Assembly: GCA_021848345.1 (NCBI GenBank)
Contig: JAJZUV010000008.1
Location: 1 to 64,000 of the forward strand
Origin: Pseudomonadota bacterium
GTDB taxonomy: Bacteria > Pseudomonadota > Gammaproteobacteria > Burkholderiales > Burkholderiaceae_C
Direction of reading: 5' to 3'
DNA: 64,000 nt
Below the pieces are notes generated by a model that saw nothing but the letters and a program-made list of their open reading frames with translations, searched no databases and was not told the DNA's origin. The position numbers were made by a program, and so were the translations under genes. Positions 216 to 41,922 of this stretch are shown one piece after another (position 1 is the first letter of the stretch; each line of letters opens with the position of its first letter).

Positions 216-375
216 GGCGCCGGCAGGCGAAGGGGGCGGCGGGGAGCGCCGTCCCCTCGTTTGCCCCAGATCAAGGAATTCCGATATTGGCACGAAATTG
301 CGTGTCGGGTGTCAATTTGCGCGGGCACAATCCGGCATCGGACCCCCAAGGAGCCCCGGAATTGCGCCGGGGCCG

Positions 376-2460
376 ATGCCCTCGACCATGCGCTCCCGCG
401 ATCCAGCCCCAGTTCCCGAGTGCGCATCGCCGGAGGCGATGGCCGACGGGAGCCTTGTGCAGCAGATCGCCGACAACGTCAGCGACGCGATCGTCGCCAA
501 GGACCTGCAGGGGCGCTTCCTGCTGTTCAATCCCGCGGCCGAGCGACTGAGCGGACGCAGCGCGAGCGAAGTGCTCGGGCGCACCGAACGCGACCTGTTC
601 CCGCTGGCGCAGGCGCGCGAGCTGGAGCGCGACGATCAGCGCATCCGGCGCGATCGCGAGGTCTTCAGTGTCGAGGAAACCCTGGACCTGGGCGATGGCA
701 AGCATGTGCTGCAGGCCGTGAAGGGCCCGCTGTTCGATGCGCGCGGCGAGCTTTCGGGCACCTTCGTCGTGGCCCGCGACATCACGCGAAGCAAGCTCGA
801 CGAGCACGAACTGCGCATCGCCGCGGTGGTGTTCGAGTCGCAGATCGGCATGCTGGTGACCGACGCCCACGGCGTGGTGCAGCGGGTCAACGGCGCCTTC
901 ACCCGCATCACCGGCTACGCCGCGGAGGAAATCGTCGGGCGCAATCCGCGCATGCTTCGCTCCGGGCTGCAGCCTCCCGCCTTCTATACCGATATGTGGC
1001 GCCAGTTGCGCGAACACGGCCACTGGCAAGGCGAACTGGTGAACCGGCATCGGGACGGATCCCTCTACCACGAGCGCCTGGACATTTCCGCCATCCGTGA
1101 CGCGCGAGGCGCGGTGCTGCACTACGTGGGATCGATGTCCGACATCACACGCGAGAAAAGCGCCAGCGCGCGCATCGAGCACCTGCGTTACCACGACCCC
1201 TTGACCGAGCTGCCCAACCGCAGCCTGTTGCAGGACCGCCTGGCGCACGCCTTGCAGGCCGATTCGCGCAGCGGGGAATACGGAGCGCTGCTGCTGCTCG
1301 ACCTGGACGATTTCAAGAACGTCAACGATTCGCTGGGTCACGCCTTCGGCGACCGCGTGCTGGTGCAGGCGGCGCAGCGCATGCGTCGCGCCATCCGTAC
1401 GGAAGACACGCTGGCCCGCTTCGCCGGCGACACCTTCGCGGTGCTGGTCGAGGGCCTGGGGCGCAGCCCCTCGGAGGCCGCCACCCGTGCCGCGGCCATC
1501 GCGGCCAAGCTTCGCCACGGCCTGGAGCAGCCCTTCCGGGTCGACGCGCGCGCCGTGTCCTGCGGCGCCAGCATCGGGCTGACCCTGTTCGACGGCGACG
1601 CCGAGGAGGTGGACGTGCTGATGCGCGAGGCGGAGCTGGCGATGTACCAGGCCAAGGAGCGCGGGCCGGGCGGGCTGTGCTTTTTCGAACAGGCGATGCA
1701 GGTGGAACTCGAGGCGCGCAACGCCCTCGAGGCGGATATGCGGGCGGCGCTGGCCGCCCGGCAATTCGTGCTGCATTACCAGGGACAGTTCGACGCGCAG
1801 GGCCGACGCATCGGGGCCGAGGCGCTGCTGCGCTGGCGCCATCCCGTGCGCGGCCTGCTGGCACCTGGCTGTTTCATCGAGCTGGCCGAGCAGACCGGGC
1901 TGATCGAGCCGCTGGGCCAGTGGGTGCTGGAGCAGGCCTGCGCGCAGCTGGCCGCATGGGCGCGCGACGCCGCCACGCGCGACCTGAGCCTGGCCGTGAA
2001 CGTCAGCGCGCGCCAGTTCCGGCACGCCGACTTCGTCGAACGGGTGTTGCGCACCGTCGAGGCCGCCGGGGCCGATGCGCGCCGTCTGCAACTGGAAATC
2101 ACCGAGAGCCTCGCGCTGGAGAACCTGCAGGACACCGTGCGCAAGCTGCGCGAGCTGCGCGCGCAGGGCGTGGGCGTGGCACTGGACGACTTCGGAACCG
2201 GCAATTCCTCGCTGGCCTACCTGGCGCAGCTTCCGCTGGACCAGATCAAGATCGACAAGTCCTTCGTGGACAAGCTGCCACAGGATCCGACCTCGGCGCT
2301 GATCGTGCAGGCCGTGCTGGCCATGGGACACGGCATGGGCCTGCAGGTGATCGCCGAGGGCGTCGAGACCCAGGCCCAGCACGAGCACCTGCGGGCCCTG
2401 GGCTGCGACGCCTTCCAGGGCTTCCTGTTCGCCAGGCCGGTGGCGACCGCAGAGTTCTGA
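376..2460 (+). CDS. PAS-PAS-GGDEF-EAL protein; probable c-di-GMP phosphodiesterase
   Basis: A 694-residue protein if it starts at ATG 376. It has two PAS sensor domains (about residues 25-135 and 150-260), a GGDEF-like domain (about 270-430) and an EAL domain (about 440-690). The EAL domain looks intact: EALLRW at 482-487, then NVSARQF, DDFGTGNSSL and KIDKSFV, all typical of c-di-GMP phosphodiesterases. The cyclase signature is AGDTF (350-354) in place of GGDEF, so cyclase activity is unlikely and the domain may be regulatory. No membrane segment or signal peptide is visible, so it probably acts in the cytosol. The start is uncertain. The open frame reaches TTG 298, and a good AAGGAG at 348-353 lies 7 bases before an in-frame ATT at 361 but 22 bases before ATG 376. 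Confidence 0.88.
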   Translation: MPSTMRSRDPAPVPECASPEAMADGSLVQQIADNVSDAIVAKDLQGRFLLFNPAAERLSGRSASEVLGRTERDLFPLAQARELERDDQRIRRDREVFSVEETLDLGDGKHVLQAVKGPLFDARGELSGTFVVARDITRSKLDEHELRIAAVVFESQIGMLVTDAHGVVQRVNGAFTRITGYAAEEIVGRNPRMLRSGLQPPAFYTDMWRQLREHGHWQGELVNRHRDGSLYHERLDISAIRDARGAVLHYVGSMSDITREKSASARIEHLRYHDPLTELPNRSLLQDRLAHALQADSRSGEYGALLLLDLDDFKNVNDSLGHAFGDRVLVQAAQRMRRAIRTEDTLARFAGDTFAVLVEGLGRSPSEAATRAAAIAAKLRHGLEQPFRVDARAVSCGASIGLTLFDGDAEEVDVLMREAELAMYQAKERGPGGLCFFEQAMQVELEARNALEADMRAALAARQFVLHYQGQFDAQGRRIGAEALLRWRHPVRGLLAPGCFIELAEQTGLIEPLGQWVLEQACAQLAAWARDAATRDLSLAVNVSARQFRHADFVERVLRTVEAAGADARRLQLEITESLALENLQDTVRKLRELRAQGVGVALDDFGTGNSSLAYLAQLPLDQIKIDKSFVDKLPQDPTSALIVQAVLAMGHGMGLQVIAEGVETQAQHEHLRALGCDAFQGFLFARPVATAEF

Positions 2461-2620: not shown

Positions 2621-5600
2621 ATGGACCAAGCCATCGAGAAGTCTCCGGCGCCGACGCAGGCTCGGGCGGAGCAGGAAGAGCAGGGACCCCTTTCGTTTTC
2701 TCAGGAAGCCTTCTGGTTCATGGACCAGTTCCCGGGCGCGGATCAGGCCTACATCGCGGTCACTGCCACGCGCATTGCCGGATCGCTCGACGTGAGGCGC
2801 CTGGAGGGGGCCGTTCGAGCGCTGGTCGCTCGCCACGCGGCTTTGCGAACCCTGTTCGTCCCCTCTGCGGAAGGGGTCGCGCAGACCGTCCTGGAAGCCG
2901 AGGCCGCCGCGGCACGTCTGCCATGGATGACCGCGCGGGCGGAGCAAGGCGAGCGGGACGGCGAAGGGCTGGCGCGGCTGATCGCAGGCCTGGTCGGTCG
3001 AGGCTTCAAGCTCGATCGGGAATTGCCGTTCCGAGCTGCATGCATCGACTTGGGTCAGGGCGAGGCGGTGCTCGCACTTGCGGTGCACCACATGGTCAGC
3101 GACGGCACGTCGATGGGCATCATGCACAGGGATCTCGCCGCGCTGTATGCATCGGGGCAGATGCTCCAGACCCTGCCGGAATCTGCAGGAAGTCTGCTCG
3201 CGCATGCCCGTGCTCAACGCGAGCGCGCGCACACTTCCTCATGGCAAAGCGCACAAGGCTATTGGCACGGTGAATTGGCAGGCGTGCAGGATCTGTGCCT
3301 TCCGACGGACTGGCCGCGCCCCGGCGTCTCGGACTTTCCCGCTGGCAGTCTGCGCACCGAAATTCCTCTTCGCCTCGTCGAGGGGCTGCGCGACCTGGCC
3401 CGCCGCAATGGCGCATCGAGGTTCCGGGCGTGGCTGTCCGTGTTCGAGGCCTTGCTCGCCCGCGTGGGCGACGGCGTGGACTTCGCGGTCGGCATCCCCG
3501 TGTCGCTGCGCAAGGATGAAATCCTGCACGAGACGGTAGGCAATTTCATCAATACCCTGGCCATCCGCATGCCCGAGGGCGCGCTGGAGGGTTCCTTTCA
3601 CGAGTTGCTGGTCGCCACGGCCGCAAAGGTTGCGCGGGCCGTCGAACACGCTGACTATCCCTTCGAGCGGGTCGTCGCGGAGCTCTGTCCCGCAAGGAGC
3701 CCGGAGCGCAATCCCATCTACCAGGCGTACTTCGCGCTCCACAACCTTCCGGACCAGTGGCAGGTGCGATTGCCGGGCCTGGAATGCTCGCGTGTGTCGA
3801 TGACCCAGCAGCGCGTGACCCTGGACCTGCTGCTGGGTATCGAGGAACACGACCAAGGAGCCACGGCGACCTGGCAGTATCGTGCGGATCTGTTCAGCGC
3901 GTCCACCATCGCGCGTCTCGCGCGACAGTTCGACATGCTGCTCGAAGGCATCGTCGCCGAGCCCTCCCGGCCCCTGCGCGGCCTGGCCCTGCTCGACACC
4001 GCCGAACGCGACGACGTATTGCGTCGATTCGCGCTGGGTGCACCGGCCATCGTGCCGTTCGTGCCCGTGCACGAGCAGTTCCGCCAGCAGTGCCTGCAAT
4101 CGCCCGAGGCTGTCGCGCTGCGCTGGAACGGGCACACGATGCGCTACGGCGAACTGGGCGAACGCGTGCATGGATGGTCGGCCACATTGCGCCAGATGGG
4201 AGCCGGGCCGGGCGGCCTGGTGGCCCTGTGCATGCCCCGCGGCTTCGCCGAGGTCGTCGGGCTGATGGCGATCCTTGAGGCCGGCGCCGCCTTCCTGCCC
4301 CTGGACCCCGACAATCCGGAGCAACGCCTGCGAGACATTCTGGACGATGCGAAGCCTGCGCTGGCGCTGGCGCACCCGGAGACGGCCGAGCGTCTGCGGC
4401 GTGCGGCGAACGCGGCGACTCGCGTGCTCGAGATCCCCGAGGACGGGCGTCATGCCGAGACGCTGGACACCGAGCCGGCACGCGTGGCCTCGCGCCCGGA
4501 CGACCTGGCGTATGTCATCTTCACGTCGGGAAGCACCGGACGACCCAAGGGCACCCTGATCGAGCACCGGGGCCTGAGCAACCATGTCGAATGGGTGCGG
4601 CAAGCCCTGCAGGCGACGCCGCGGGACCGCTTTCTGCAGAACGTGTCTCTCGCCTTCGACGGCTCGCTGTACTCCTTCTTCGTTCCGCTGGCCTGCGGCG
4701 CCCGTGTGATCCTGGTCGATGCGGCTCGTCAGAAGGACATGGAACTCCTGCATCGGCTCATGCTCGACGAGCAGGCGACCACGGCGATGCTGGTTCCGAG
4801 CGTGCTGCGCGCCTTGCTCGAACATGCCACGCCGAGCGACTCCCATGCGCTGCGCTACGTGGTGTGCGGCGGCGAGGCGCTCGACAGCGCATTGGCGCGC
4901 AAGCTGTTCGATACCTATCCGGGCGTGCGTCTGGGCAACTTCTACGGCCCCACAGAGGCTACCGTGGTCAGCGTGGCCCTCGAGGTGCAGGCGTCCGACA
5001 TGGAAGGCGCCACGGTTCCCATCGGACGCCCGACCGCCGGCCTGCGCGCCTACGTGCTGGCCCCCGATCTGCAGCCGCAGCCCATCGGCGTGGCCGGCGA
5101 ATTGTGCCTGGGGGGCGTGGGCCTGGCGCGGGGCTACCTGAACCGCCCGCAGCTCGACGCCGAACGCTTCGTGCCCGATCCTTTCCATCCCGGGGAGCGA
5201 CTCTACCGCAGCGGCGATCTGGCGCGCTGGCGAGCCGACGGCAAGCTGGAGTTCCTGGGGCGCGGGGACGACCAGGTGAAGCTGCGGGGGCTGCGGGTCG
5301 AACTGGGCGAGGTCGAGGCAGCATTGCTCGATCAGCCCCAGGTGCGCGGCGCGGTCGTGGGGGTGGCTCGAAACGAGGCAGGAGCGCCACGACTCGTGGC
5401 CTACGTGCTGGCGCGGGGACTGGACGCGGCGACGCTGCGAGAGCGGCTCAAGGCGCGCATACCGTCGTACATGGTGCCGTCGAGCTTCCTGTTCCTCGAC
5501 GCCTTTCCCAGTCTGCCCAGCGGCAAGGTGGACCGCAAGGCGCTGGCCCTGCTCGAGCCGACGCCCGATCGCTCCGAGGACGCGCAAGGCCTCGCGCCGC

Positions 5601-8600
5601 GTTCTGCGCTCGAGGCGAATCTGCTGGAGATCTGGCAGAGAGTGCTCGGCGTGACGCGGATCGCGCCGAACGATGATTTCTTCGCGCTCGGCGGAAACTC
5701 GCTGCAACTGACCCAGGTGGCCTCGCAGATGCGAGCGGCATTGGGGGTCAACATCGAATTGCGCACCTTGTTCGATCGTCCGACCTTGCGTGAGCTCACC
5801 CAGGTCGTCGAGGCCAGCATCGGAGCCAGGGGCGAGAGCGGGGAAGATGTTCCCATTGCGAAGGTCGCGCGGGACGGGGCGCTTGCCCTTTCGTTCTCGC
5901 AACGGCGCATGTGGCTGGAACATCAGATGGATCCGCGGGGCGGCGCTTACAACGTCTATGGAGCGTTGCGCCTGCACGGAGCCCTGGACCGGAGCGCGTT
6001 GCGCCGGGCGCTGGACCGGCTGGTCGCGCGCCATGAGGCCTTCCGCACGCGGTTCAGCTTCGAGGCCGGGGAGCCCGTTGCCCGGATCGACCCGCCCGCG
6101 CCGGCCAGGCTCACCGAGGTCGACGCGACCGCGGGCGCCCCGCCGGAGCATGCATCCGTCGAGGCATGGCTGTCGCGGCTCGCCGCGGAACCCTTCGACC
6201 TGGAACATGGGCCCGTGTACCGGGTCATCCTGGCCCGCGAGGCCGCCGAGCGCCACGTCTGCGTGGTCGTGATGCACCATATCGTCACCGACGGCTGGTC
6301 GCAGGGTATCCTGGCCACGGAACTCGAAGAACTGTATCGTGCCGAGCATCTCGGCCGGCCCGCCAGGCTCGCTTCCCAGGGTATCGAATTCGCCGACTAT
6401 GCGTGCTGGCAACGCCGTCACGTGAACGAGGACTCGCTGCAGCCGCAGGTTGCCTACTGGCTGGAACGCCTGGATGGCATGGTGCCGCTGAGCCTGCCCA
6501 CGGACACCGGCCGGGCCACGCGCTCGGGCAGCCGAGGCGATCTGGTCCTGCTGCCGTTGAGCGACGACTGGATCGCCCAGCTGCAGCAGCGCAGCGCGAG
6601 GCTGGGATGCACGCCGTTCATGGTGCTGCTCGCGGTGTTTCAGTCGATGCTGGCCCGCTGGTGCGGGCAGGATGACGTCAGTGTGGGATTTCCCATTGCC
6701 AATCGCACGCGCCTGGAGGCCGAGGGCATCGTGGGCTCGTTGGTCAACACCCTCGTGATGCGCAATCGGGTGGATGGCGCGGCGAGCTTCAGGGCCTTCC
6801 TGCACGATGAAGTCCGCCCCGGCGTGCTGGGAGCGTTCACGCATCAGGATCTGCCGTACGACAACCTGATCAACCGGCTGCGCGAGCGAGCGGCGCCCGG
6901 CGATGATCCGGGGATTCGCGTCCTGTTCAACGTTCTCAACAGTCCGCGTGCGCCCCTGCATTTCGAGGGGCTGGATGCACAGTACGTGGATCTGGGTCTG
7001 GGATCCACCCAGTTCGATCTTTCGCTCGGTATCGACCCCGTGTCGCAGAAGGCGCTCGGGCTCAGCTATTCCACGGAACTCTTCGAACGCTCGAGCATGG
7101 AGGGACTGGCTCGCCTTTTCCTCCACGGAGTGGAGCGCGCCCTGCGCGAGCCCGACTGCCGGCTGGAGGATCTGTGGGTGGCGCCGCCCGAGGACCAGGC
7201 ACGCATGGCCGGCTGGAATGCGCCGCCGGCGGTCGCCGCGGCCATGCTTCCCGCGAACTTGCCGAGTTTGCTCGCCGCTTCGCGCGCCTGCACGGGGCCT
7301 GCCCTTCGCGACTCCGAGGGGCGCACCTGGAGCTATCCGGAGTTGTGGGCGGCCGTGGATGCCTTCGCCGGCGTGCTGCGCGCGCGAGGCGCGCATCGAG
7401 GCCGCCTGGTCGGGCTCGGCCTGCCTCGCGGCGCCGAATTGGTGATCGCGCAGTTGGCTACCCTGGAGGCGGGCGCCGCCTATGTGCCACTGGATCCGCG
7501 CTATCCCCAGGCACGTCTGCACGACATGATCGAGGACGCCGGGCTGCTGCTGCTCGTCACGAGCTCCGAATTGCACGGTGTGTGGGAAGGCGCCGACGTC
7601 CAACTCCTGGATATCGGCACCGCGACAGGTTCCGTCGCCACGCTGAGGGTGGATCCGGACGACGAACTTGCGGCTCGCCCGGAGGATCCCGCCTACGTGA
7701 TCTACACCTCGGGTTCGACCGGGAAACCCAAGGGAGTCGTGGTTCCGCACCACGCCGTGGTCAATTTCCTGGTGTCCATGCAGCGGGAACCCGGGCTGCG
7801 CCAGCAGGACACCCTGCTCGCCGTGACCACGCTGAGCTTCGACATCGCCGTTCTGGAACTGCTGCTGCCCGTGAGTCTCGGTGCCTGCGTGGCGGTGGCC
7901 TCGCACGAGGAGGTGAGCGACGGCGGTGCGCTGCTGCGGCGCATCGAACGCGAGCAACCCGCGGCGATGCAGGCCACGCCTGCCACCTGGCGCATGCTCA
8001 TCGATGCCGGATGGAGGGGCACGCCCGGCTTGAAGGCCCTGGTAGGAGGCGAGGCCCTGGGCCGAGGGCTGGCGGACGAGATCCTGGCTCGGTGCGCGGA
8101 ACTATGGAACATGTACGGGCCGACCGAGACGACCGTATGGTCGACCTGTTGGCGCGTCGCGCCGACGCCGGCGCCGATCCGCATCGGGACCCCCATCGCC
8201 AACACCCAGATCCACGTGCTCGATCCCCACGGGAGGCCGTGCCCCATCGGCTTCAGCGGGGAGATATTCATCGGCGGCGACGGCGTCACTTCCGGCTACC
8301 TGCACCGCGCCGAACTCACCGCCGAGCGTTTCGTGCCCAACCCCTTCGCGCCAGTGGCCGGGGCCACCATGTATCGCACGGGCGATCGCGGGCGCTGGGG
8401 GCACGACGGCTTGCTGGAGCATCAGGGGCGCCTGGACTTCCAGGTCAAGGTGCGAGGCTTTCGCATCGAACTCGGCGAGATCGAGTCCCACCTGCAGGCC
8501 CACGAAGACGTGGCCCAGTGCCTGACCCTGGTGCGCGAGGACTTTCCGGGCGACCCTCGGCTGACGGCATACGTGGTGCCCCGAGGCGCGCAGTGCGATC

Positions 8601-9070
8601 CTGCTGCGCTTCGCGACTGGCTGCGCGCGCGCCTGCCTGCCTACATGGTGCCGCAGCAGATCGTTCGACTCGCCGAGTTTCCGCGCCTGCCCAACGGCAA
8701 GATCAACCGTGCCTTGCTGCCCAGGCCCACGCAGGAAGCGCCGGGCCCCGGGCGAGGCGCGGACGATGCTCCCAGGACCGAGGCCGAGCGCGCCCTGGCG
8801 GGAATCTGGAGCACGCTGCTCGGGGCTTCCGAGATCAGGCGAGGGGACAATTTCTTCGACCTCGGCGGGCATTCGCTGCTCGCCAACCGCGTGGTCGTGG
8901 AGTTCGAGAAGCTCTGCGGCGCGCGCCTGGATCTGCGCAGACTGGTGCACGAGAACCTTGCGCAGCTGACCCATGGCGTGGACGAGTCGGCGATGCAGGG
9001 CACCGGAGAGCCGCAGGCGTCCGGACCGGAGAGCCTCTGGCACAGCCTTCGCCGTCGACTGTGGTCATGA
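2621..9070 (+). CDS. Nonribosomal peptide synthetase, C-A-T-C-A-T (second module Gly-like)
   Basis: A 2149-residue two-module synthetase. C1 (about 20-450) has HHMVSDG at 156-162. A1 (about 480-985) has the core TSGSTGRPKG after Tyr631. T1 carries its phosphopantetheine serine at Ser1027 in GGNSL. C2 (about 1100-1520) has HHIVTDG at 1219-1225. A2 (about 1550-2050) has TSGSTGKPKG after Tyr1692. T2 has its serine at 2085 in GGHSL. Aligning by eye to GrsA, A1 reads DGYMVGFVVK, which I cannot assign. A2 reads DILQLGMVWK, eight of ten matching the published glycine code DILQLGLIWK. There is no epimerase, methyltransferase, reductase or thioesterase domain, so release must be in trans or at another protein. 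The gene converges on a second NRPS gene 25 bp away. No MbtH-like, phosphopantetheinyl transferase or export gene is nearby. Confidence 0.95.
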   Translation: MDQAIEKSPAPTQARAEQEEQGPLSFSQEAFWFMDQFPGADQAYIAVTATRIAGSLDVRRLEGAVRALVARHAALRTLFVPSAEGVAQTVLEAEAAAARLPWMTARAEQGERDGEGLARLIAGLVGRGFKLDRELPFRAACIDLGQGEAVLALAVHHMVSDGTSMGIMHRDLAALYASGQMLQTLPESAGSLLAHARAQRERAHTSSWQSAQGYWHGELAGVQDLCLPTDWPRPGVSDFPAGSLRTEIPLRLVEGLRDLARRNGASRFRAWLSVFEALLARVGDGVDFAVGIPVSLRKDEILHETVGNFINTLAIRMPEGALEGSFHELLVATAAKVARAVEHADYPFERVVAELCPARSPERNPIYQAYFALHNLPDQWQVRLPGLECSRVSMTQQRVTLDLLLGIEEHDQGATATWQYRADLFSASTIARLARQFDMLLEGIVAEPSRPLRGLALLDTAERDDVLRRFALGAPAIVPFVPVHEQFRQQCLQSPEAVALRWNGHTMRYGELGERVHGWSATLRQMGAGPGGLVALCMPRGFAEVVGLMAILEAGAAFLPLDPDNPEQRLRDILDDAKPALALAHPETAERLRRAANAATRVLEIPEDGRHAETLDTEPARVASRPDDLAYVIFTSGSTGRPKGTLIEHRGLSNHVEWVRQALQATPRDRFLQNVSLAFDGSLYSFFVPLACGARVILVDAARQKDMELLHRLMLDEQATTAMLVPSVLRALLEHATPSDSHALRYVVCGGEALDSALARKLFDTYPGVRLGNFYGPTEATVVSVALEVQASDMEGATVPIGRPTAGLRAYVLAPDLQPQPIGVAGELCLGGVGLARGYLNRPQLDAERFVPDPFHPGERLYRSGDLARWRADGKLEFLGRGDDQVKLRGLRVELGEVEAALLDQPQVRGAVVGVARNEAGAPRLVAYVLARGLDAATLRERLKARIPSYMVPSSFLFLDAFPSLPSGKVDRKALALLEPTPDRSEDAQGLAPRSALEANLLEIWQRVLGVTRIAPNDDFFALGGNSLQLTQVASQMRAALGVNIELRTLFDRPTLRELTQVVEASIGARGESGEDVPIAKVARDGALALSFSQRRMWLEHQMDPRGGAYNVYGALRLHGALDRSALRRALDRLVARHEAFRTRFSFEAGEPVARIDPPAPARLTEVDATAGAPPEHASVEAWLSRLAAEPFDLEHGPVYRVILAREAAERHVCVVVMHHIVTDGWSQGILATELEELYRAEHLGRPARLASQGIEFADYACWQRRHVNEDSLQPQVAYWLERLDGMVPLSLPTDTGRATRSGSRGDLVLLPLSDDWIAQLQQRSARLGCTPFMVLLAVFQSMLARWCGQDDVSVGFPIANRTRLEAEGIVGSLVNTLVMRNRVDGAASFRAFLHDEVRPGVLGAFTHQDLPYDNLINRLRERAAPGDDPGIRVLFNVLNSPRAPLHFEGLDAQYVDLGLGSTQFDLSLGIDPVSQKALGLSYSTELFERSSMEGLARLFLHGVERALREPDCRLEDLWVAPPEDQARMAGWNAPPAVAAAMLPANLPSLLAASRACTGPALRDSEGRTWSYPELWAAVDAFAGVLRARGAHRGRLVGLGLPRGAELVIAQLATLEAGAAYVPLDPRYPQARLHDMIEDAGLLLLVTSSELHGVWEGADVQLLDIGTATGSVATLRVDPDDELAARPEDPAYVIYTSGSTGKPKGVVVPHHAVVNFLVSMQREPGLRQQDTLLAVTTLSFDIAVLELLLPVSLGACVAVASHEEVSDGGALLRRIEREQPAAMQATPATWRMLIDAGWRGTPGLKALVGGEALGRGLADEILARCAELWNMYGPTETTVWSTCWRVAPTPAPIRIGTPIANTQIHVLDPHGRPCPIGFSGEIFIGGDGVTSGYLHRAELTAERFVPNPFAPVAGATMYRTGDRGRWGHDGLLEHQGRLDFQVKVRGFRIELGEIESHLQAHEDVAQCLTLVREDFPGDPRLTAYVVPRGAQCDPAALRDWLRARLPAYMVPQQIVRLAEFPRLPNGKINRALLPRPTQEAPGPGRGADDAPRTEAERALAGIWSTLLGASEIRRGDNFFDLGGHSLLANRVVVEFEKLCGARLDLRRLVHENLAQLTHGVDESAMQGTGEPQASGPESLWHSLRRRLWS

Positions 9071-9095
9071 GGCGGCAAGCCTCCAGGCGCAGCAC

Positions 9096-12000
9096 TCAGG
9101 GCTTCGCGGTGCCGCCAGGCACGGCGCGCGCCAATTGTCCAAGGGTCTCGAAAATCAGCCTTCGGGGTTCCAGGCGGATTCCCAGGCGCTTCTCGATCTC
9201 CACCACGGCGCGCATGGCCAGCAGCGAATGGCCGCCCAGGTCGAAGAAGTTGTCGTCGCGGCGGATCTCCGACGCGCCCAGGAGTTCGGCCCATACCTCG
9301 GCCATGACCGATTCGGCGGGGCTGCCGGGAGCATTCGCGGCCTGCGCGGAGGCTTCCGGCGCGCGTTCCACCGGTCCGGGCGCGGGCAGCCGGGCGCGAT
9401 CCACCTTGCCGTTGGGGAGCAGCGGGAACTCGGCCAGCACCACGAAGTGCTGCGGGATCATGTACTCGGGCAGGCGCCGCTGCAGCTGGGCTCGCAGCTG
9501 CGCGGCCGGGGGTGCGTCGCCTTCCACCGCCAGGTAGGCGACCAGGCGAACGTCGGCGCTGTCGAGTTGCTGCGTGCTCAGCAAGGCCTGGCGCACGCCC
9601 GGTTGCTCGAGCAGGGCCGCCTCGATCTCGCCCAGCTCGATGCGGAATCCGCGGACCTTCACCTGATGGTCCAGGCGTCCGAGATGCTGCAGCAGCCCGT
9701 CGTGTCCCCACTTGCCGAGGTCCCCGGTCCGGTACAGCCGGGCCGCAGGGTCCGTCGCGAAGGGATCGGCGACGAATCGCTCGGCGTTCAGTTCCGGCCG
9801 CTTCCAGTAGCCGAGGGTCACGCCCGTGCCGCCGATGTGGATTTCTCCCGGTATCCCGGTGGGACAGGGCTTGCCGCAGGCATCCAGCACCCAGACCGTG
9901 GTGTTGTCGATGGGGTGGCCGATGCGGATCTGCGCCTCCGGTTCCACCCGCCAGCAGGTCGACCACACGGTCGTCTCCGTGGGGCCGTACATGTTCCACA
10001 ACTCGGGACAGGCCTCGAGCAGACGCTTGGCCAGATCGGGCGCCAGGGCCTCGCCGCCGATCAGGCCCCGCATGGCGCCATGGCCGCTCCAGCCGGCGTC
10101 GAGCAGCAGGCGCCAGGTCGAAGGGGTCGCCTGCAGCACGTTGGCGGCGCTGGACTCGAGCAGCTCGCGCAGTGCGAAGGGGTTGCGGGTGGTGGCCGTG
10201 TCGGCGATGACCAGATCCGCTCCGGTGGCCAGCGGAAGCAGGAGTTCCAGCACCGCGATGTCGAAGGACAGCGTGGTCACGGCGAGAAGCTTGTCGCCGG
10301 CGCCCAGTCCGGGGCGGACGGACATGCTCTGCAGGAAATTCACGATCGCGCCGTGGGGCACCGAGACCCCTTTGGGGCGTCCCGTGGAGCCCGAGGTGTA
10401 GATCATGTAGGCGCAGTCTCGCGCGCCGGCGTCCCGTGCCGCATCGGCAGGCAAGGGAGCGTCCGGAAAAGTCCGCCAGGGTGCCGAGGCATCGAGCTCA
10501 AGGGTTTCCAGCCCGGCCAGGTCGAGGCGATCGCGCAGATCCGCATGCAACAGCACGGCCGCGAGTTCGGCGTCGCGGGCCATGTAGTCCAGGCGCTCGC
10601 GCGGATAGTCCGGGTCCAGCGGCACGTAGGCGGCACCCGCCTCGAGCACGCCCAGCATGGCCGCGAGCATGTCGGTGCCGCGGTGCGCGCACAGGCCGAC
10701 GCGGGAGCCGCGCTGGATGCCGCGGGAGCGCAGCAGGCGGGCGATGCGGTGTGCCTGACCCAGCAGTTCCGGTTGCCCGATGGAGCGCCCGTCGGGGCCG
10801 GCGATCTCCGCGCCCGAGCCCAGGCTGGCGATGCGCTGCGCCAGGTGGCCGTGCACCACCAGGGTCTCGGGCAGCGCGCGCGGCGCGGGCGCGCAGTGCT
10901 CGCGCTGGCGTCCGAGCATCGCGGGCGACACCATCGATAGCTCGTCCAGCCGCGCATGCGGATTCGTCAGCGCCGACTCGGCCAACCAGACGAAGGCCTC
11001 GAGCAGCTGACGTACCGTGGCTTCGGTGAACAGATCGCTGGCGTACTCGATGTGGATGCGCTTGGCGAATTCGGTGTCGATGTGCATCGACAGGTCGAAC
11101 TGCGCCGCCACGCGATCGATGGGGAAATCGGCATAGTCGAAATCCACCGAGGCCAGCGCCCCGAGCGGTGCGTTGCGCAGGTTGAACAGTACGCGCACGG
11201 GGCCTTCGGCGTGAACCGTGCGGTCCATGTCGAGGCGCTCGACCAGGTCGTCGTAGGGCGTGTCCTGATGGGCGAAGGCCTCGAGCGCGGTGTCGCGCAC
11301 GCGCAGGGCCCACTGCTCGAAGTCGAGCGAGGGGTCCAGGCGTGTGCGCATCACCAGGGTGTTGACCAGGGTTCCGAACAGGTGCTCGGTGGCTTCGTGG
11401 TGACGGTTCGCGATGGGGCTGCCGACCGCGATGTCGTCGATGCCCGAAAGGCGCCACGCCAGCAGCTTGAACACCGCGAGGAAGCTGACATAGGGGGTCA
11501 CCCCGAGACGACGGCAGAAAGGGTCGAGCAGGGCCAGCACGCGCGGCGGGATATCAGCGCGGATCTGATGCCCGTGGAATCCACGCACGGGCGGCGGCGA
11601 CAGATCGGTCGGCAACTGCAGCGGGCGCACCCCGCGCAGGCGCTCCAGCCAGTAGTCCATCTGGTGGCGCCTGATCGCCTGTACCGCCTCGCTTCGTTGC
11701 CAGACCGCGTAGTCGGCGTACTCGATGCCCAGCGGGGCCCACGAGGGCCGTTGCCCGGCGCGACGTTGTGCGTAGGCCTGAAGCAGGTCGCGCAACAGCA
11801 CGCCGATGGCCCAGGTGTCGGCGATCGCATGATGGAAAACCCACGACACCACGAACTTGCGCTCGTCGAGGCGCAGCAGGTAGATGCGGTGCAGCGGGGC
11901 CGCCGCAAGATCGAAGGGCCGCTCGAATTCCTGCAGAAGCAGACGACGCGCCTCGTCCTCGCGCGCCGTGGCCGCAAGGTGGCGCAGGTCCCATGGCTGG

Positions 12001-15000
12001 ATGGCCATCCGGAGTTCGGGCAGGATGATCTGCATCGGCTCGTCATCCTGCAGCACGAAGGCGGTGCGCAGGCCCTCATGCCGCCGCACGAGGTCGTCCA
12101 CGACGGCTTGCAGCGCGTCGAGGTCGAGTTCGCCGCGTATCAGGATCGTGACCGGGATGTTGTAGGCGACGGAGCTGGGATCGAATTGCTGGATGACCCA
12201 CATGCGGCGCTGGGAGAACGAGGTCGGCAGCGGAACGCCGCGCGGAACCCGCACGATCGGGGGCAGTCCGTCGCGCGCCACGTTCGCGTCTTGGGGGCCC
12301 TGCGCGCGCAAGTGCTCGGCGATGTCCGCGATGCTGCGCAGATCGAACAGCGTGGCCAGCGGCAACTCGATGCCCAGGCGGCCGCGGATGCGCGACGCCA
12401 CCTGGGTGATGAGCAGCGAATGGCCGCCCAGATCGAAGAAGCTGCTGTTCACCCCGAAATTGGTCTGACCCAGCACCTCGCTCCAGATCGACCACAGGCT
12501 TCGCTCCAGGTCGTCGCGCGGCGCCGTGTCGCCGACCTGCTCGGCCGCGTCGTCCTGCGGGCGGGGCAGGGCGCGGCGGTCGATCTTGCCATTGGCGTTC
12601 AGCACGAAGGCCTCGAGGGCCAGGATGCTGGACGGCACCATGGCCTGCGGCAGCAGTTCCTGCAAGCGCCGGCGCAATGACTGGGTGTCGACCTGTGCGA
12701 CCGGAACCTGGGCGGTGACGTAGGCGATCAGACGCAGCTGCCCGGTCGGATCGGCTTCGGCGGCGACCAGCGCCTGGCGCACCGGGGGCAGGCCGCCCAG
12801 CACGCTCTCGACCTCGGCCGGCTCGATGCGGTGCCCGCGGATCTTGATCTGGTGGTCGGCCCGCCCCAGGTACTCGAGGCTTCCGTCCGGGTTCCACGAC
12901 GCGAGGTCCCCGCTGCGATACATGCGCTCGCCCGGGGCCGGTGCCCACGGGTCGGTCACGAAACTGGCCGCGCTGCGCTGTTCGAGACCCAGGTAGCCTC
13001 GGGCCACCCCGGCTCCGGCGATGCAAAGCTCTCCGATCGCTCCGATCGGGCACAGGCGTCCGTCCAGGTCGACCACGTAGGTGCGTACCCCGGGCAGCGG
13101 GCGTCCGATGTTCGGCTGCGTCGACTCCCCGATGGGGGCCCAGGTCGCGTCCACAGTGCATTCGGTCGGGCCGTACACGTTGTGAAAGGCGATACCTTGC
13201 TCACGTGAGATCCTGCTCAGCAGGGCCCACGTACGCGCGTCGATCGCTTCGCCGCCCACCAGGGTGAGCCCGGGCCATCCGCCGGTCGCGAAGGTTTCGG
13301 TCTGAACCACCGCGAGCAGTTGCTGCGGGGTGATGTCGACCACGTCGGCGCTGGTGCGCACCAGGTATCGATGCAATTGCATCGGGTCCAGCCGTGCCCG
13401 CTGGGGAATCAGCACCAGCGTGCGCCCGGCGGCGACCTGGATCCATTGCTTGATCGAGGCATCGAAGCCCATTGAGGCGTTCACCGCCACGCGCCGCGCC
13501 TCGGGGTGTTGCGCATAGATGGCGCCTTCCAGCGCATCCAGCAGGTAGGCGAGGTTGCCGTGTTCGACCATCACGCCCTTGGGCGTTCCGGTCGAGCCGG
13601 AGGTGTAGAGCACATAGGCCAGCTGCGCCGGGGGGCACGGACGCGCGAGATGGTCTGCGATCGCCTCGTCCCCTTCCAGTGCCGATTGAAGGTCCAGGGT
13701 CGGGATTTCCATCGCGCGGGCCTGGGGCAGCGGCTCGAAGTGACTCAGGATCACGGTCGGCCGGGCGTCCGCGATGATCGCGCCCAGGCGCGCGACGGGC
13801 GTCGCCGGATCGAGGGGAACGAAGGCCCCGCCAGCGCTCAGCACGCCCAGCAGCGCCGGAAGCAGGTCCAGTCCTCGCTCGACGTGCAGACCCACGAGAC
13901 TTTCGGGGCCGACGCCCGCACGGAGTAGCCGCGCGGTCACCCGATTCGCCCGGCGCGCCACCTCGCCGAAACTCAACATCCCGTCGTCATAAACCACCGC
14001 CGTGCGCTCGGGGTGCAGCCTGGCCTGCTCGGCGAAGCGAACGTGGATGGGCTGGCCCGCGGGCGCCTCGTGCGCCAGCCGAGGTCCCAGGGCCAGAGTC
14101 GATCGGATGCGATCGAGCTCGGCCGGATCGGCCATGTCGAAGTCGCGCAAGGGTCGTATCGTGTCTTCCAGCGTGCGCCTGGCCAGCGAGTCGAGTTGCC
14201 GGGCATAGCCTTCGACCTGCGCGCGGGTCAGGCGCCGAGGGTTGTAGTTCAGTTCGACCTCGAAGTCCCCGCCGGCGGCGTAGCGGCGAACCCGGACGGT
14301 GAGCGCGACCTGGGAGCCGCCCTGGAACAGCGGAACCACGGCATAGCGCGCGCTTCCCAGGTTGCCCTCGACCTCGAATTCCTCGATCGAAACGACGATG
14401 TCGAACAAGCGTGTCCGTGCCCCGGCGTTCAGGCCGTGCAGTCGATGAATCTCCGACAGCGGGAAATTCTGATGACGGTACAGACGTCGCAGCGTCGCGC
14501 CGATCACATCCATCGACTGCTCCAGGCTCAGCGCCCCGTCGTAGTGCAGGGGTACGGGAAGCATGGTGCTGAACATGCCGGGCGTGGCCCTGTCCTCCCG
14601 CGTAGTGCGGTTGTGGATGGGAACTCCGATGGTCAGATCCCGCGTGCTGTTCGCCCTGGCGAAGTAGCTGCTGACCAAGGCCAGCATGAAATGCGCCATG
14701 GACAGTCCTCGCTCCTGGGCGCGCTCCTGCACGGGCTCGTAGTCGGCGCGGGGCAGCGTCCAGCGCACGAGGTTGCGCGACGCATCGATCGGTTCCTCGG
14801 GTCCCGTCGGACTCCTCGGGAACGGGGGCGGCGCCAGTTCCGCCAGTTCGGTGCGCCAGAATTCCGCGTCGGCCTGGTACCGATGGGAGGAGCGATAGCG
14901 CGCCTGCCGCTCGACGTAGTCGGAGTAGTCCGGTAACGCCGCGGGCCTCGGGGCATCGGCCAGCAGCGCATCGTAGAAGCGCGCGATCTGCCGGGACAGG

Positions 15001-15440
15001 ATCCACAGACTGTAGGCGTCCTGGACGATGTGATGCGAGCCCAGAAACAGCAGGTGCCGCGACGGCGAGGTGCGCACCAGCGCAAAGCGCCAAAGCGGAC
15101 CGCGTTCAAGGTCATAGGGGCGCGCCAGAATGGCTTGCATATACGCCGTCTGCGCATCGGGGCTGTCGTGCAGCCCGGGCACATGCTCGACATCCAGATT
15201 CCAGGCACTCGGATCTGCCACGCGGGCCAGCACGGCCTCGTCACGACGCTCGATGGTCGAGCGCAGCACGCGCTGGTCCTCCAGCACCTGTTGCAGGGCG
15301 AGTCGCAGTCGCCCGACGTCCAGTTCACCGTCGACCCGGAAGTAGCAGCCGATGTTGTAGACCGGCTGTTGGTCGTGAAGGACTTGATCGATGTAAACAT
15401 CGATCTGCTGTTGAGACAGTGGGAATGCCTGCGTGTTCAT
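9096..15440 (-). CDS. Nonribosomal peptide synthetase, C-A-T-C-A-T (Glu then Gly predicted)
   Basis: A 2114-residue two-module synthetase starting at ATG 15440. C1 starts at the N-terminus (LSQQQIDVYIDQVLH) in the style of starter or acylating condensation domains, with HHIVQDA from His136. A1 has TSGSTGTPKG after Tyr609. T1 has Ser1008. C2 has HHAIADT from His1203. A2 has TSGSTGRPKG after Tyr1678. T2 has Ser2072. By-eye codes are DAKDLGVVDK for A1, identical to the published glutamate code, and DILQLGMVWK for A2, identical to A2 of the neighbouring NRPS and glycine-like. Both condensation motifs replace the final glycine of HHxxxDG (Ala and Thr), but the catalytic second histidines remain. 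There is no thioesterase. Given the starter-like C1, a plausible but unproven product is an acylated Glu-Gly unit passed to the other synthetase. Confidence 0.95.
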   Translation of the reverse strand: MNTQAFPLSQQQIDVYIDQVLHDQQPVYNIGCYFRVDGELDVGRLRLALQQVLEDQRVLRSTIERRDEAVLARVADPSAWNLDVEHVPGLHDSPDAQTAYMQAILARPYDLERGPLWRFALVRTSPSRHLLFLGSHHIVQDAYSLWILSRQIARFYDALLADAPRPAALPDYSDYVERQARYRSSHRYQADAEFWRTELAELAPPPFPRSPTGPEEPIDASRNLVRWTLPRADYEPVQERAQERGLSMAHFMLALVSSYFARANSTRDLTIGVPIHNRTTREDRATPGMFSTMLPVPLHYDGALSLEQSMDVIGATLRRLYRHQNFPLSEIHRLHGLNAGARTRLFDIVVSIEEFEVEGNLGSARYAVVPLFQGGSQVALTVRVRRYAAGGDFEVELNYNPRRLTRAQVEGYARQLDSLARRTLEDTIRPLRDFDMADPAELDRIRSTLALGPRLAHEAPAGQPIHVRFAEQARLHPERTAVVYDDGMLSFGEVARRANRVTARLLRAGVGPESLVGLHVERGLDLLPALLGVLSAGGAFVPLDPATPVARLGAIIADARPTVILSHFEPLPQARAMEIPTLDLQSALEGDEAIADHLARPCPPAQLAYVLYTSGSTGTPKGVMVEHGNLAYLLDALEGAIYAQHPEARRVAVNASMGFDASIKQWIQVAAGRTLVLIPQRARLDPMQLHRYLVRTSADVVDITPQQLLAVVQTETFATGGWPGLTLVGGEAIDARTWALLSRISREQGIAFHNVYGPTECTVDATWAPIGESTQPNIGRPLPGVRTYVVDLDGRLCPIGAIGELCIAGAGVARGYLGLEQRSAASFVTDPWAPAPGERMYRSGDLASWNPDGSLEYLGRADHQIKIRGHRIEPAEVESVLGGLPPVRQALVAAEADPTGQLRLIAYVTAQVPVAQVDTQSLRRRLQELLPQAMVPSSILALEAFVLNANGKIDRRALPRPQDDAAEQVGDTAPRDDLERSLWSIWSEVLGQTNFGVNSSFFDLGGHSLLITQVASRIRGRLGIELPLATLFDLRSIADIAEHLRAQGPQDANVARDGLPPIVRVPRGVPLPTSFSQRRMWVIQQFDPSSVAYNIPVTILIRGELDLDALQAVVDDLVRRHEGLRTAFVLQDDEPMQIILPELRMAIQPWDLRHLAATAREDEARRLLLQEFERPFDLAAAPLHRIYLLRLDERKFVVSWVFHHAIADTWAIGVLLRDLLQAYAQRRAGQRPSWAPLGIEYADYAVWQRSEAVQAIRRHQMDYWLERLRGVRPLQLPTDLSPPPVRGFHGHQIRADIPPRVLALLDPFCRRLGVTPYVSFLAVFKLLAWRLSGIDDIAVGSPIANRHHEATEHLFGTLVNTLVMRTRLDPSLDFEQWALRVRDTALEAFAHQDTPYDDLVERLDMDRTVHAEGPVRVLFNLRNAPLGALASVDFDYADFPIDRVAAQFDLSMHIDTEFAKRIHIEYASDLFTEATVRQLLEAFVWLAESALTNPHARLDELSMVSPAMLGRQREHCAPAPRALPETLVVHGHLAQRIASLGSGAEIAGPDGRSIGQPELLGQAHRIARLLRSRGIQRGSRVGLCAHRGTDMLAAMLGVLEAGAAYVPLDPDYPRERLDYMARDAELAAVLLHADLRDRLDLAGLETLELDASAPWRTFPDAPLPADAARDAGARDCAYMIYTSGSTGRPKGVSVPHGAIVNFLQSMSVRPGLGAGDKLLAVTTLSFDIAVLELLLPLATGADLVIADTATTRNPFALRELLESSAANVLQATPSTWRLLLDAGWSGHGAMRGLIGGEALAPDLAKRLLEACPELWNMYGPTETTVWSTCWRVEPEAQIRIGHPIDNTTVWVLDACGKPCPTGIPGEIHIGGTGVTLGYWKRPELNAERFVADPFATDPAARLYRTGDLGKWGHDGLLQHLGRLDHQVKVRGFRIELGEIEAALLEQPGVRQALLSTQQLDSADVRLVAYLAVEGDAPPAAQLRAQLQRRLPEYMIPQHFVVLAEFPLLPNGKVDRARLPAPGPVERAPEASAQAANAPGSPAESVMAEVWAELLGASEIRRDDNFFDLGGHSLLAMRAVVEIEKRLGIRLEPRRLIFETLGQLARAVPGGTAKP

Positions 15441-15766: not shown

Positions 15767-16654
15767 ATGTCCAGCCCTCCGGCCGATGCGCTCGAAGGAC
15801 TCGAGAAGCGACTCGAGCAACTCCCCCTGCTGCCGGAGGTCGTGCGCAGGCTGATGAGCCTGCGCCAGGACAGCCCCGACTATTTCGACCAGGTGGCGCA
15901 GGCGCTGCATGGAGATCCGGTCTTCGCCACACGCCTGCTGCAGTACGCCAACTCCGCGGCGCTGGGCGCCGGGCGACCGATCACCACCATCCAGGAAGCC
16001 ATGCTGCGCGTGGGCGCCCGCGGCGCGGTGGATCTGGTCCTGGCGCACTCGGCGGTGCGCGTGTTCGAGCCGGGCAGCGACTGGGAGGCCGGCCTGTGGA
16101 GGCACTCGGTGGACGTCGCCTGGCTGATGCGCAAGTTGTGCGTGCTGGCCATCGACCATCGCGGCGAGCCCGACGAAGCCTATGTGTTCGGGCTGCTGCA
16201 TGACATCGGACGCTTCGTGCTGTACCTGGAGGCCCCCGAGCAGCTGCGCGGCGTCGAGGAGACGGACTGGGGCACCCCCGACGAACTGATCGAGGCCGAG
16301 ACCCGGATCTGCGGCTACACCCACGCGGAGCTCGGCTATCTGGCGCTGCGCAAGTGGCGCCTGCCCGACGCGCTGGCCGAGGCGGTGCGCTGGCACCATA
16401 CCCGGCCGCTTCCGCTGGAGGGCATCGACGGCCGCTATCGCGCGCTGAACGCCCTGCTGCAGGAGGTGGACTGGATCGCCGTGGGTGCCGAGCGCGCCGC
16501 GGTAGGGGACGCCGCCGCGCGGTCCGAGTTCCGCGCGGCCCTGGACGGCAAGCTGCAACTGCGCCTGCGCGGTACCCTGGACGACCTCGAGTTCACGATC
16601 CAGGAGGCGCTGCGCGAGTCCCGGCGTATGCTCACGGCATTGCACCTGCAGTGA
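15767..16654 (+). CDS. HDOD domain signalling protein
   Basis: A 295-residue soluble protein. The N-terminal two thirds match the HDOD family: LEQLPLLPEVVRRLM, then DPVFATRLLQYANSA and an AMLRVGARGAVDLVL helix. A further histidine-aspartate pair (HD at 145-146, in LLHDIGR) resembles HD-type hydrolases, and many HDOD proteins keep it without proven activity. The family is linked to c-di-GMP, motility and stress signalling in proteobacteria, but no substrate is known for most members. It starts at ATG 15767, 13 bp before the next gene, so co-transcription with the propeller protein is possible. The exact role is unknown. Confidence 0.85.
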   Translation: MSSPPADALEGLEKRLEQLPLLPEVVRRLMSLRQDSPDYFDQVAQALHGDPVFATRLLQYANSAALGAGRPITTIQEAMLRVGARGAVDLVLAHSAVRVFEPGSDWEAGLWRHSVDVAWLMRKLCVLAIDHRGEPDEAYVFGLLHDIGRFVLYLEAPEQLRGVEETDWGTPDELIEAETRICGYTHAELGYLALRKWRLPDALAEAVRWHHTRPLPLEGIDGRYRALNALLQEVDWIAVGAERAAVGDAAARSEFRAALDGKLQLRLRGTLDDLEFTIQEALRESRRMLTALHLQ

Positions 16655-40636: not shown

Positions 40637-40734
40637 ATCCGCTGGACTCCTGAGCCGGCCGGACGGCCCGATTGTCAGGGTCCGACCGTTGTGGCTATGC
40701 TGCGCGCAGGCCTGCACACCCTGGGGGGAGAGCG

Positions 40735-41922
40735 ATGCTGCGCGAGCCGGACACGGTCGATCGGGAGCCGCGGGAGTGGTACCGGGAGCAGGAGGGCCGC
40801 CTGGAGGATCTGGCGCGACTCGTCGAGCAGGGCCGCTTGCCGAGCCTGCGCTACGCGCGGGATGTGTCCGGCGGCATCCCCATCTACGACGGCGAATCGT
40901 GCAGGCGCTGGATCGCGGAAGGGTCCGCCTGCGTGGCGCTGCAGTCCGAGTGGGTGGCGGTACTGCGCGATGGCGCTGGCGCCCTGGTGCTGCGCCGGGC
41001 CTGTGCCGACACCACAGCCGTCGATGCCGCCACCGCCGTGTTCGAGTCGATCATCCGCGACGAGCGTTCCGGCGCGACCGGTGGGGCGGATCATTTCGCC
41101 AAGCCGGGAGCCAATGACCGGATCTGGAACGCGCAGGAGAAGCTCTGTCTGCGCGATCCCGAGGTGTTCGTGCGCTATTTCGCCAATCCCCTGCTGATGG
41201 CGGTGTGCCAGGCCTGGCTGGGTCCGGCCTACCAGATGACCTCGCAGGTCAACGTGGTTCGCCCGGGGGGCGACGCGCAGATGGCGCATTGCGACTATCA
41301 CCTCGGGTTCCAGACGGTGGAGCAGGCGCTGCGCTATCCCGAGCACGTGCATCGCATGTCCTCGTTCCTGACCATCCAGGGAGCGCTCGCCCACTGCGAC
41401 ATGCCGATGGACAGCGGGCCCACCAAGCTGCTGCCGTTCTCGCAGCGCTTCGCGCTAGGCTATCTCGCGTGGCGCAGGCCGGACTTCCGCGCCTATTTCG
41501 AGGAGCATTTTGTTCAACTGCCGCTGGGCAAGGGCGATGCGCTGTTTTTCAATCCGGCGCTTTTTCACGCGGCGGGGGCCAATCGCACCGCGGACGTCTC
41601 ACGCATGGCGAACCTGTTGCAGGTGTCGTCCGCCTTCGGCAGGGCCATGGAGGTGCTGGATCGCCGGCACATGTGCGAAGCCGTCTATCCCGCATTGCGC
41701 CGCGGCCGCGACGCGGGCGGCATGCGCGATGCGGACATCGACGCGGTGATCGCCGCGTGCGCCGAAGGCTATCCGTTTCCGACCAACCTGGACCGCGATC
41801 CGCCGCTGCAGGGGCTGGCTCCAGCGAGCCAGCAATCCTTGCTGCGGCTGGCCCTGGAGCAGAACTGGTCCGTCGGCGAGCTGGCAAAGGCGCTGACGGA
41901 ACACGCGTGGCGCCGCTCCTAG
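40735..41922 (+). CDS. Phytanoyl-CoA dioxygenase (PhyH)-like Fe(II)/2-oxoglutarate enzyme
   Basis: A 395-residue protein from ATG 40735, preceded by GGGGGGAG. The facial triad is readable: His185 and Asp187 in MAHCDYH, and His278 in NPALFHAAGANRT, with Arg284 as the likely 2-oxoglutarate ligand. HRMSSFLTIQGALAHCDMP and DSGPTKLLPFSQRF are typical of PhyH proteins. They oxidise varied small molecules, and the substrate here is unknown. No transporter or biosynthetic neighbour helps. A role in tailoring the NRPS product is not supported, as the genes lie about 25 kb apart. Confidence 0.82.
   Translation: MLREPDTVDREPREWYREQEGRLEDLARLVEQGRLPSLRYARDVSGGIPIYDGESCRRWIAEGSACVALQSEWVAVLRDGAGALVLRRACADTTAVDAATAVFESIIRDERSGATGGADHFAKPGANDRIWNAQEKLCLRDPEVFVRYFANPLLMAVCQAWLGPAYQMTSQVNVVRPGGDAQMAHCDYHLGFQTVEQALRYPEHVHRMSSFLTIQGALAHCDMPMDSGPTKLLPFSQRFALGYLAWRRPDFRAYFEEHFVQLPLGKGDALFFNPALFHAAGANRTADVSRMANLLQVSSAFGRAMEVLDRRHMCEAVYPALRRGRDAGGMRDADIDAVIAACAEGYPFPTNLDRDPPLQGLAPASQQSLLRLALEQNWSVGELAKALTEHAWRRS

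Follow-up and report, generated by a model that had tools for sequence, protein, structure and literature searches.

Convergent, thioesterase-less peptide synthetase genes in a Burkholderiaceae_C genome: probable separate insertions and a possible acyl-Glu-Gly-X-Gly product

Two nonribosomal peptide synthetase (NRPS) genes that face each other, stand apart from any accessory gene, and lack a thioesterase (TE) raise the question of whether they form one assembly line and how its product would leave it. Such a pair, here named NRPS1 and NRPS2, lies on contig JAJZUV010000008.1 of a Burkholderiaceae_C genome (order Burkholderiales; GenBank assembly GCA_021848345.1; 3.26 Mb in 48 contigs, 93.7% complete). 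We analyzed the first 64,000 nucleotides of this 94,973-bp contig, called the window below. Our tentative answer is that two separately acquired, TE-less dimodular synthetases jointly make acyl-Glu-Gly-X-Gly, a glutamate- and glycine-containing chain in which X is an unassigned residue, with release in trans.

Two intact synthetases that end in a carrier domain

Both genes are complete open frames, and each protein carries two Pfam matches to Condensation, two to AMP-binding, and two to PP-binding. Purpose-built domain hidden Markov models (HMMs) arrange these condensation (C), adenylation (A), and carrier (T) domains in the order C-A-T-C-A-T in either protein. With the HHxxxD motif kept in all four C domains and LGG(H/N)SL in all four T domains, both proteins show the repeated domains and intact core motifs of a modular NRPS. 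Neither has a Pfam match to a TE or reductase (R) domain, that is, to a domain for release in cis. Open reading frames, Pfam, and domain HMMs agree with a preliminary description of this DNA, made from its letters alone, which had reported two tail-to-tail synthetases with 25 bp between their stop codons; the observation of the convergent, TE-less pair is confirmed as real. The lack of an adjacent TE, MbtH, or phosphopantetheinyl transferase (PPTase) gene, remarked on there too, also stands: the two PPTases of the assembly lie on other contigs (C2 and C46), and MbtH has no match anywhere in the assembly.

Substrate codes and condensation domains suggest an order

Substrate codes were read by alignment, with a gramicidin S synthetase domain, which gave DAWTIAAICK, as the ruler. 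This returned the assignments first proposed by eye, an unassigned residue plus glycine for NRPS1 and glutamate plus glycine for NRPS2. The first code of NRPS2, DAKDLGVVDK, reads as a glutamate code, and that of NRPS1, DGYMVGFVVK, comes closest in the genus to DGYMGGLVVK of genome G015. The second A domains of both proteins have the DILQLG-type code DILQLGMVWK, whose reading as glycine is supported by DILQLGMIWK, given as a glycine code in PMC12283262.

The first C domain of NRPS2 finds its best solved matches in 7C1K, 7C1H, and 7C1P (133.6 to 128.8 bits), deposited for RzmA-Cs, a starter domain using acyl-CoA (PMC7804268); the next-best molecule, ObiF1, follows at 98.8 bits. The RzmA-Cs entries likewise rank top for the first C domain of the related (NRPS2-type) gene in G014. 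For the first C domain of NRPS1, the top structures are DhbF, TycC, Txo, and PCP-C, with an RzmA entry in none of 42 matches, and for the first C domain in G011 they are Txo, DhbF, and TycC, with RzmA last of 47. By similarity to solved structures, used in place of a tree of labelled references, the first C domain of NRPS2 looks like a starter domain, as had been suggested, and that of NRPS1 looks like an elongation domain, which should need an upstream donor. On these matches, NRPS2 would be able to start a chain and NRPS1 should continue one, and since the first C domain of NRPS1 is elongation-like, NRPS2 followed by NRPS1 would be the sensible order.

Read from the domain order, motifs, C-domain likenesses, codes, insertion history, and tail, the starter C domain of NRPS2 would join an acyl group to Glu before Gly is added. 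The acyl-Glu-Gly thioester would most likely be handed to the first C domain of NRPS1 in this genome, NRPS2 being the sole other C-domain protein in an assembly whose only C domains are the four of the pair. NRPS1 would then add X and the last Gly, and a separate enzyme, perhaps docked on the basic C-terminal tail of NRPS1, would release acyl-Glu-Gly-X-Gly. According to PMC7804268, RzmA (rhizomide) and HolA (holrhizin) of Burkholderiales likewise use a starter C domain to join acyl-CoA to the first amino acid and have modular C-A-T architecture. Unlike there, the genes described here are convergent and solitary and encode two modules per protein. In both proteins of the pair, nothing lies past the last T domain.

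A genus-wide family of solitary synthetases ending in glycine

Among 28 genomes of the genus, with types assigned by domain identity, NRPS1-type genes occur in nine (this genome, G000; G006, partial; G011; G012; G013; G015; G021; G026; and G027) and NRPS2-type genes in six (G000, G001, G014, G020, G023, and G027). Several members are fragments at contig ends, and G015 has an NRPS1-type gene on contig C98 plus pieces on C51 and C220 that may be one gene. Presence and absence, here and below, refer to the matches listed, with at most 6 or 14 candidates scored per genome, so that an unscored gene could be missed. Besides the present site, the loci of the family include tgt/queA, IlvD-ClpA, guaA-guaB, and a polysaccharide region; except in G027, the relatives sit at loci other than the present one. 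Relatives of both types resemble the pair in domain order, whole or partial, in lacking a TE, in terminal Gly where readable, and in their isolation. The NRPS1-type relatives differ from NRPS1 in a varying first residue, in following an A-T protein (G011 and G021), or in beginning with an A domain (G012). This A-T protein lies directly before the NRPS1-type gene (G021, L018 11732-13633; G011, L016 ~8062-9888) and is possibly a loading module, which is not present in the window.

Thirteen genes fetched from the genus end naturally in C-A-T and have a last A domain that can be read; all 13 carry the last-module code DILQLG(M/L)VW(K), that of G021 being read without its final position at the end of the stretch. 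Outside this count stand fragments without a readable last A domain (G027 C138, C141, and C258; G015 C51; G026 C3; G020 C183; G006 C230) and genes that are partial or of another type (G018 C6, G017 C63, and G019 C310). The count also leaves aside the A-T proteins and the polyketide synthase (PKS)-type proteins, found in G011 and G021 and in G012 and G021, respectively, as well as three C-A-T-C-T genes (G012 L096, G021 L095, and G018 C20). Another 19 stretches, which cover the remaining long NRPS places listed for the genus, added no gene with a C-A-T end: nine of their proteins end naturally in C-T (eight are C-A-T-C-T, and one is an A-T-C-T protein cut at a contig end), and the remainder are PKS-type, A-T-C, or fragments. 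C-T-ended proteins, a separate type, were thus seen with that end 12 times (3 + 9). The first code of NRPS2-type genes is DAKDLGVVDK in all three that are readable; NRPS1-type genes and fragments have nine different first codes, that of G027 being the Gly code. By sequence, both synthetases of the window belong to a larger group of isolated synthetases that lack a TE and end in Gly.

Outside the genus, G099 carries a 2154-aa C-A-T-C-A-T gene with a Gly code last and a 7-aa tail. In wider sampling with NRPS2 at E<=1e-250 (two to three candidates scored per genome, this genome counted), at least 9 of 120 family genomes and at least 4 of 140 order genomes gave matches. The nearest named relative of NRPS1 (65%) is on a contig of the metagenome-assembled genome DX2.bin53 ("Proteobacteria bacterium"), and the best match to NRPS2 among those listed from plasmid records reaches 37%.

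Probable separate insertions at one site

Of the 28 genus genomes, 7 match the HDOD gene to the right of the pair at E<=1e-80, and the 21 others carry no information on the site. Five of the seven (G002, G004, G007, G009, and G026) have an NRPS-free site, with HDOD directly after GGDEF-EAL at a gap of 101-209 bp. In G027, contig C111 shows an NRPS2-type 3' end at most a few dozen bases past GGDEF-EAL, and contig C258 shows an NRPS2-type 5' end ahead of HDOD; these contigs are not joined, and the middle of the site is unseen. Since no NRPS1 adjoins the NRPS2-type gene of G027, NRPS1 appears to have been inserted separately, and the simplest order of events at the site is empty, then NRPS2, then NRPS1.

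Divergence from G027 is unequal along this region. The flanking HDOD and phosphoenolpyruvate (PEP) carboxylase proteins are 97.3% and 98.7% identical (synonymous divergence, dS, 0.13 and 0.12), and GGDEF-EAL is 89.3% identical (dS 0.30). Over residues 1-660 of NRPS2, identity is 65.9% (dS 0.83). In blocks of 30 codons within this part, DNA identity varies between 48% and 96%, and the T domain at the 3' end of the gene reaches 92% across 212 bp. Such uneven identity points to a swap of internal segments or replacement, not steady divergence. This mosaic pattern is not universal: the NRPS2-type genes of G014 and G001 at the IlvD-ClpA site are 88.2% identical (nonsynonymous divergence, dN, 0.062; dS 0.233) between flanks of 98.4% and 93.5% (dS 0.32 and 0.27), so that the gene was inherited there along with its neighborhood, under purifying selection. 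The convergent, accessory-free pair is best explained by separate insertions of solitary NRPS family members. Even if the shared release discussed below is false, the site, with its empty, one-gene, and two-gene states, offers a natural series for tracing the entry of NRPS genes into chromosomes without a surrounding cluster.

One assembly line or two synthetases

Several observations weigh against a joint line. The two genes do not appear to have been inherited together, as one dedicated two-gene line would have it, and in G027 no NRPS1 lies between GGDEF-EAL and the 3' end of the NRPS2-type gene. Both types occur together in two genomes (G000 and G027) against about 1.9 expected by chance from 9 of 28 and 6 of 28; G014, 99% complete in three contigs, has an NRPS2-type gene and, among its listed matches, no NRPS1-type gene, and G015, G013, and G026 show the NRPS1-type only. 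The stretches upstream of NRPS1 and NRPS2 share no 10-mer, and a common promoter motif was discarded on this ground; no docking pair was recognized between the end of NRPS2 and the start of NRPS1; and no release enzyme was identified for the pair, which has no TE, R, or C domain for this in cis.

The chance-level co-occurrence also speaks for two independent synthetases side by side, NRPS2 giving acyl-Glu-Gly and NRPS1 extending the cargo of another carrier, such as a stand-alone carrier protein, to Y-X-Gly, with release in trans by an enzyme of their own or a shared one. So do the solitary NRPS2-type genes, surrounded by housekeeping genes in G014 and G001, next to ClpA in G023, and located at the present site without an adjacent NRPS1 in G027. 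NRPS1-type genes point the same way: in seven of nine genomes they were seen without an NRPS2-type gene, and in G011 and G021 they follow an A-T protein. Such independence sits less well with the elongation-like first C domain of NRPS1, for which the genome offers no other NRPS as donor; nor was an A-T loader seen in the assembly, because all five carrier-domain matches outside the pair sit in short frames of 89-140 aa. The chance-level co-occurrence and the lone NRPS2-type gene of G014 are why we hold the joint line only tentatively and treat independence as a credible, if somewhat doubtful, alternative. The four-residue acyl-Glu-Gly-X-Gly line of the preliminary description therefore survives as a reasonable prediction from codes and C-domain types, whereas its standing as a dedicated line is weakened by the separate insertions, the co-occurrence, and G014.

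The pair might also be a fragment, with a gene for release, tailoring, or a third synthetase located past the contig start or within the 6% of the genome that the assembly lacks. NRPS1 begins 2.6 kb from the contig start, so that the earlier statement about the left side rests on little sequence; the assembly is incomplete, and several NRPS genes of relatives stop at contig breaks. However, the left neighbor is the resident GGDEF-EAL gene that adjoins HDOD in the five NRPS-free relatives, and related genes in the well-assembled G011, G014, G021, and G099 also end in a T domain, which leaves a fragment quite unlikely.

Possible release in trans

Glidonin synthetase, a Burkholderiales lipopeptide line that, as here, has a starter C domain and terminates unusually, adds putrescine with its last C domain (PMC10587159). 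Here, in contrast, nothing follows the last T domain, and no C domain stands past it or alone in the assembly; glidonin-like release was rejected on this basis. A terminal C domain elsewhere, allowed for in the preliminary description, finds no place among the four C domains of the 93.7%-complete assembly.

Candidate NRPS-type TEs lie on other contigs, with three matches to PF00975, two of them above its cut-off (36.5 and 30.4 bits), and a TE acting in trans is thus conceivable. In the relatives, alpha/beta hydrolase genes lie nearby at no constant position. Related hydrolases stand directly before the G012 gene, one gene from the end of G027 C138, past both tgt and a transporter gene in G027 C141, on the far side of tgt in G026, and beside C-A-T-C-T genes in G018 and G021; a different hydrolase directly follows the NRPS in G013, and one directly precedes it in G015. 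This genome has a relative of the first hydrolase group on C46, 75% identical to the G027 copy. The C46 cluster (L027 3-8976) encodes a GDSEG hydrolase, a GH2-like protein, a DUF1839 protein, a 312-aa protein without a Pfam match, an acyl-CoA dehydrogenase-like protein, a carrier, and an Sfp-like PPTase, and presumably resembles amino acid:carrier protein ligase clusters. Since no NRPS lies beside it, its hydrolase counts as a release candidate and nothing further. A link to exosortase A is not claimed, as the hydrolases score below cut-off and that of C46 has no NRPS beside its cluster; in G012, what follows the NRPS is a gene for an XrtA-system deacetylase that scores above its cut-off.

Alternatively, an oxidase in trans might cleave the last Gly to leave a terminal amide, as in Gly modules that contain a monooxygenase (MOX). 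PMC12283262 describes four Gly-activating domains with MOX features, the near-identical code given above, and terminal amide formation, and the Gly code shared by all 13 readable last modules beside a variable first residue would suit this route. The last A domains are likewise Gly-specific by code, but they have no MOX insert, their matches spanning 483 (NRPS1) and 488 aa (NRPS2) with no extra Pfam domain, and the adjoining genes (GGDEF-EAL, HDOD, and BNR protein) are not oxidases. We consider an amide quite unlikely.

The residues after the last T domain number 27 in NRPS1, 6 in NRPS2, and 2-34 in relatives of both types. NRPS2-type proteins end 2-6 aa past the last T domain; NRPS1-type tails are 26-34 aa long and varied in sequence, and end with W, then L/F/I, and mostly basic residues. 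The pattern W.{2,4}[LFI].{2,4}[LIWVR] is matched by 10 of 10 NRPS1-type tails (nine from the genus plus G141) and, in 2000 shuffles of each tail, by 1.8 on average and by 6 of 10 at most; because it was picked after viewing the tails, the proteins are related, and G141 comes from another genus, the signal is suggestive only. C-T-ended proteins have short basic tails too, mostly without W, so that a basic tail is not special to the NRPS1-type.

Given the constant Gly last module and the W..(R)L tails of the NRPS1-type, one dedicated partner could serve many chains. We raise as a speculative and rather unlikely extension that one trans release system is common to the solitary TE-less synthetases of the genus, a single partner unloading many X-Gly chains; this partner could be an amide-leaving oxidase or a transferase or serine hydrolase of the polysaccharide gene cluster that several of these genes are close to. 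If true, this would be a natural plug-in system with swappable first modules, a constant Gly end, and a common unloader, in which new products arise by a swap of the first module only, and would bear on synthetase engineering. In the literature covered (titles and abstract openings, subscription papers being mostly outside), nothing was recognized as a TE-less Glu-Gly or X-Gly pair, so that novelty is not established, and likewise nothing on an exosortase or polysaccharide link or on the codes.

Gene neighborhood and further observations

The genes flanking the pair are ordinary chromosomal residents (Table 1). Also on the left is a short frame whose weak match to a chemotaxis receptor stays below cut-off; to the right follow HDOD, a BNR-repeat protein, YceI, a glyoxalase, PEP carboxylase, and HemD. 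A PhyH-family dioxygenase (window positions 40672-41922) and a Rieske ring-hydroxylating oxygenase (49317-50447) lie at least 25 kb from the pair.

Table 1. Features of the NRPS locus, in window coordinates
Feature	Coordinates	Strand	Basis
Left flank, PAS-GGDEF-EAL protein, resident gene, outside any cluster	298..2460	+	
NRPS1, C-A(X)-T-C-A(Gly)-T + basic tail, 2149 aa	2621..9070	+	ORF, Pfam, domain HMMs, codes
NRPS1 C1, elongation-like condensation domain, HHMVSDG	2684..4006	+	domain HMM, motif, structure matches
NRPS1 A1, code DGYMVGFVVK, residue X	4061..5545	+	domain HMM, code alignment
NRPS1 T1	5606..5815	+	domain HMM, motif
NRPS1 C2, HHIVTDG	5879..7195	+	domain HMM, motif
NRPS1 A2, code DILQLGMVWK (Gly), ordinary length	7271..8719	+	domain HMM, code alignment
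NRPS1 T2, terminal carrier	8780..8986	+	domain HMM
NRPS1 C-terminal tail, 27 aa, last residues SLWHSLRRRLWS	8987..9067	+	
Gap between both stop codons, 25 bp	9071..9095	.	
NRPS2, C(starter-like)-A(Glu)-T-C-A(Gly)-T, 2114 aa	9096..15440	-	ORF, Pfam, domain HMMs, codes
NRPS2 T2, terminal carrier, hardly any tail	9117..9320	-	domain HMM
NRPS2 A2, code DILQLGMVWK (Gly), ordinary length	9387..10850	-	domain HMM, code alignment
NRPS2 C2, HHAIADT; identical motif in G001, G014, G023	10917..12233	-	domain HMM, motif
NRPS2 T1	12303..12512	-	domain HMM, motif
NRPS2 A1, code DAKDLGVVDK (Glu)	12567..14054	-	domain HMM, code alignment
NRPS2 C1, starter-like condensation domain, HHIVQDA; best solved relative RzmA-Cs	14118..15428	-	
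Right flank, HDOD protein, resident gene, outside any cluster	15767..16654	+	

A PKS-NRPS set recurs in the genus (L095 3908-16619; L096 5923-19102; L162, L163, L165, L169, L170, L171, L173, and L177). By eye, its first protein is A-T-KS-AT-T-aminotransferase and its second C-A-T-C-T; the last protein is TE-less and C-T-ended with a basic tail. In G021 a PPTase follows, with Wzz and a glycosyltransferase nearby. G141, of another genus in the same family, has a C-A-T-C-A-T gene with Gly codes in both modules (L155 5447-15717), followed by a PPTase and IlvD; IlvD also neighbors the NRPS2-type site of G014 and G001.

An NRPS appears to lie between tgt and the same peroxidase gene, in opposed orientation, in G020 (L092 6337-7653 and L093 3-2531, split across two contigs) and G021 (L018 14055-20000). 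A possible NRPS remnant at the tgt locus of this genome was dismissed as unconvincing (best tblastn E 0.02); the sequence there can be aligned with the GNAT/glycosyltransferase region of G027 and G026.

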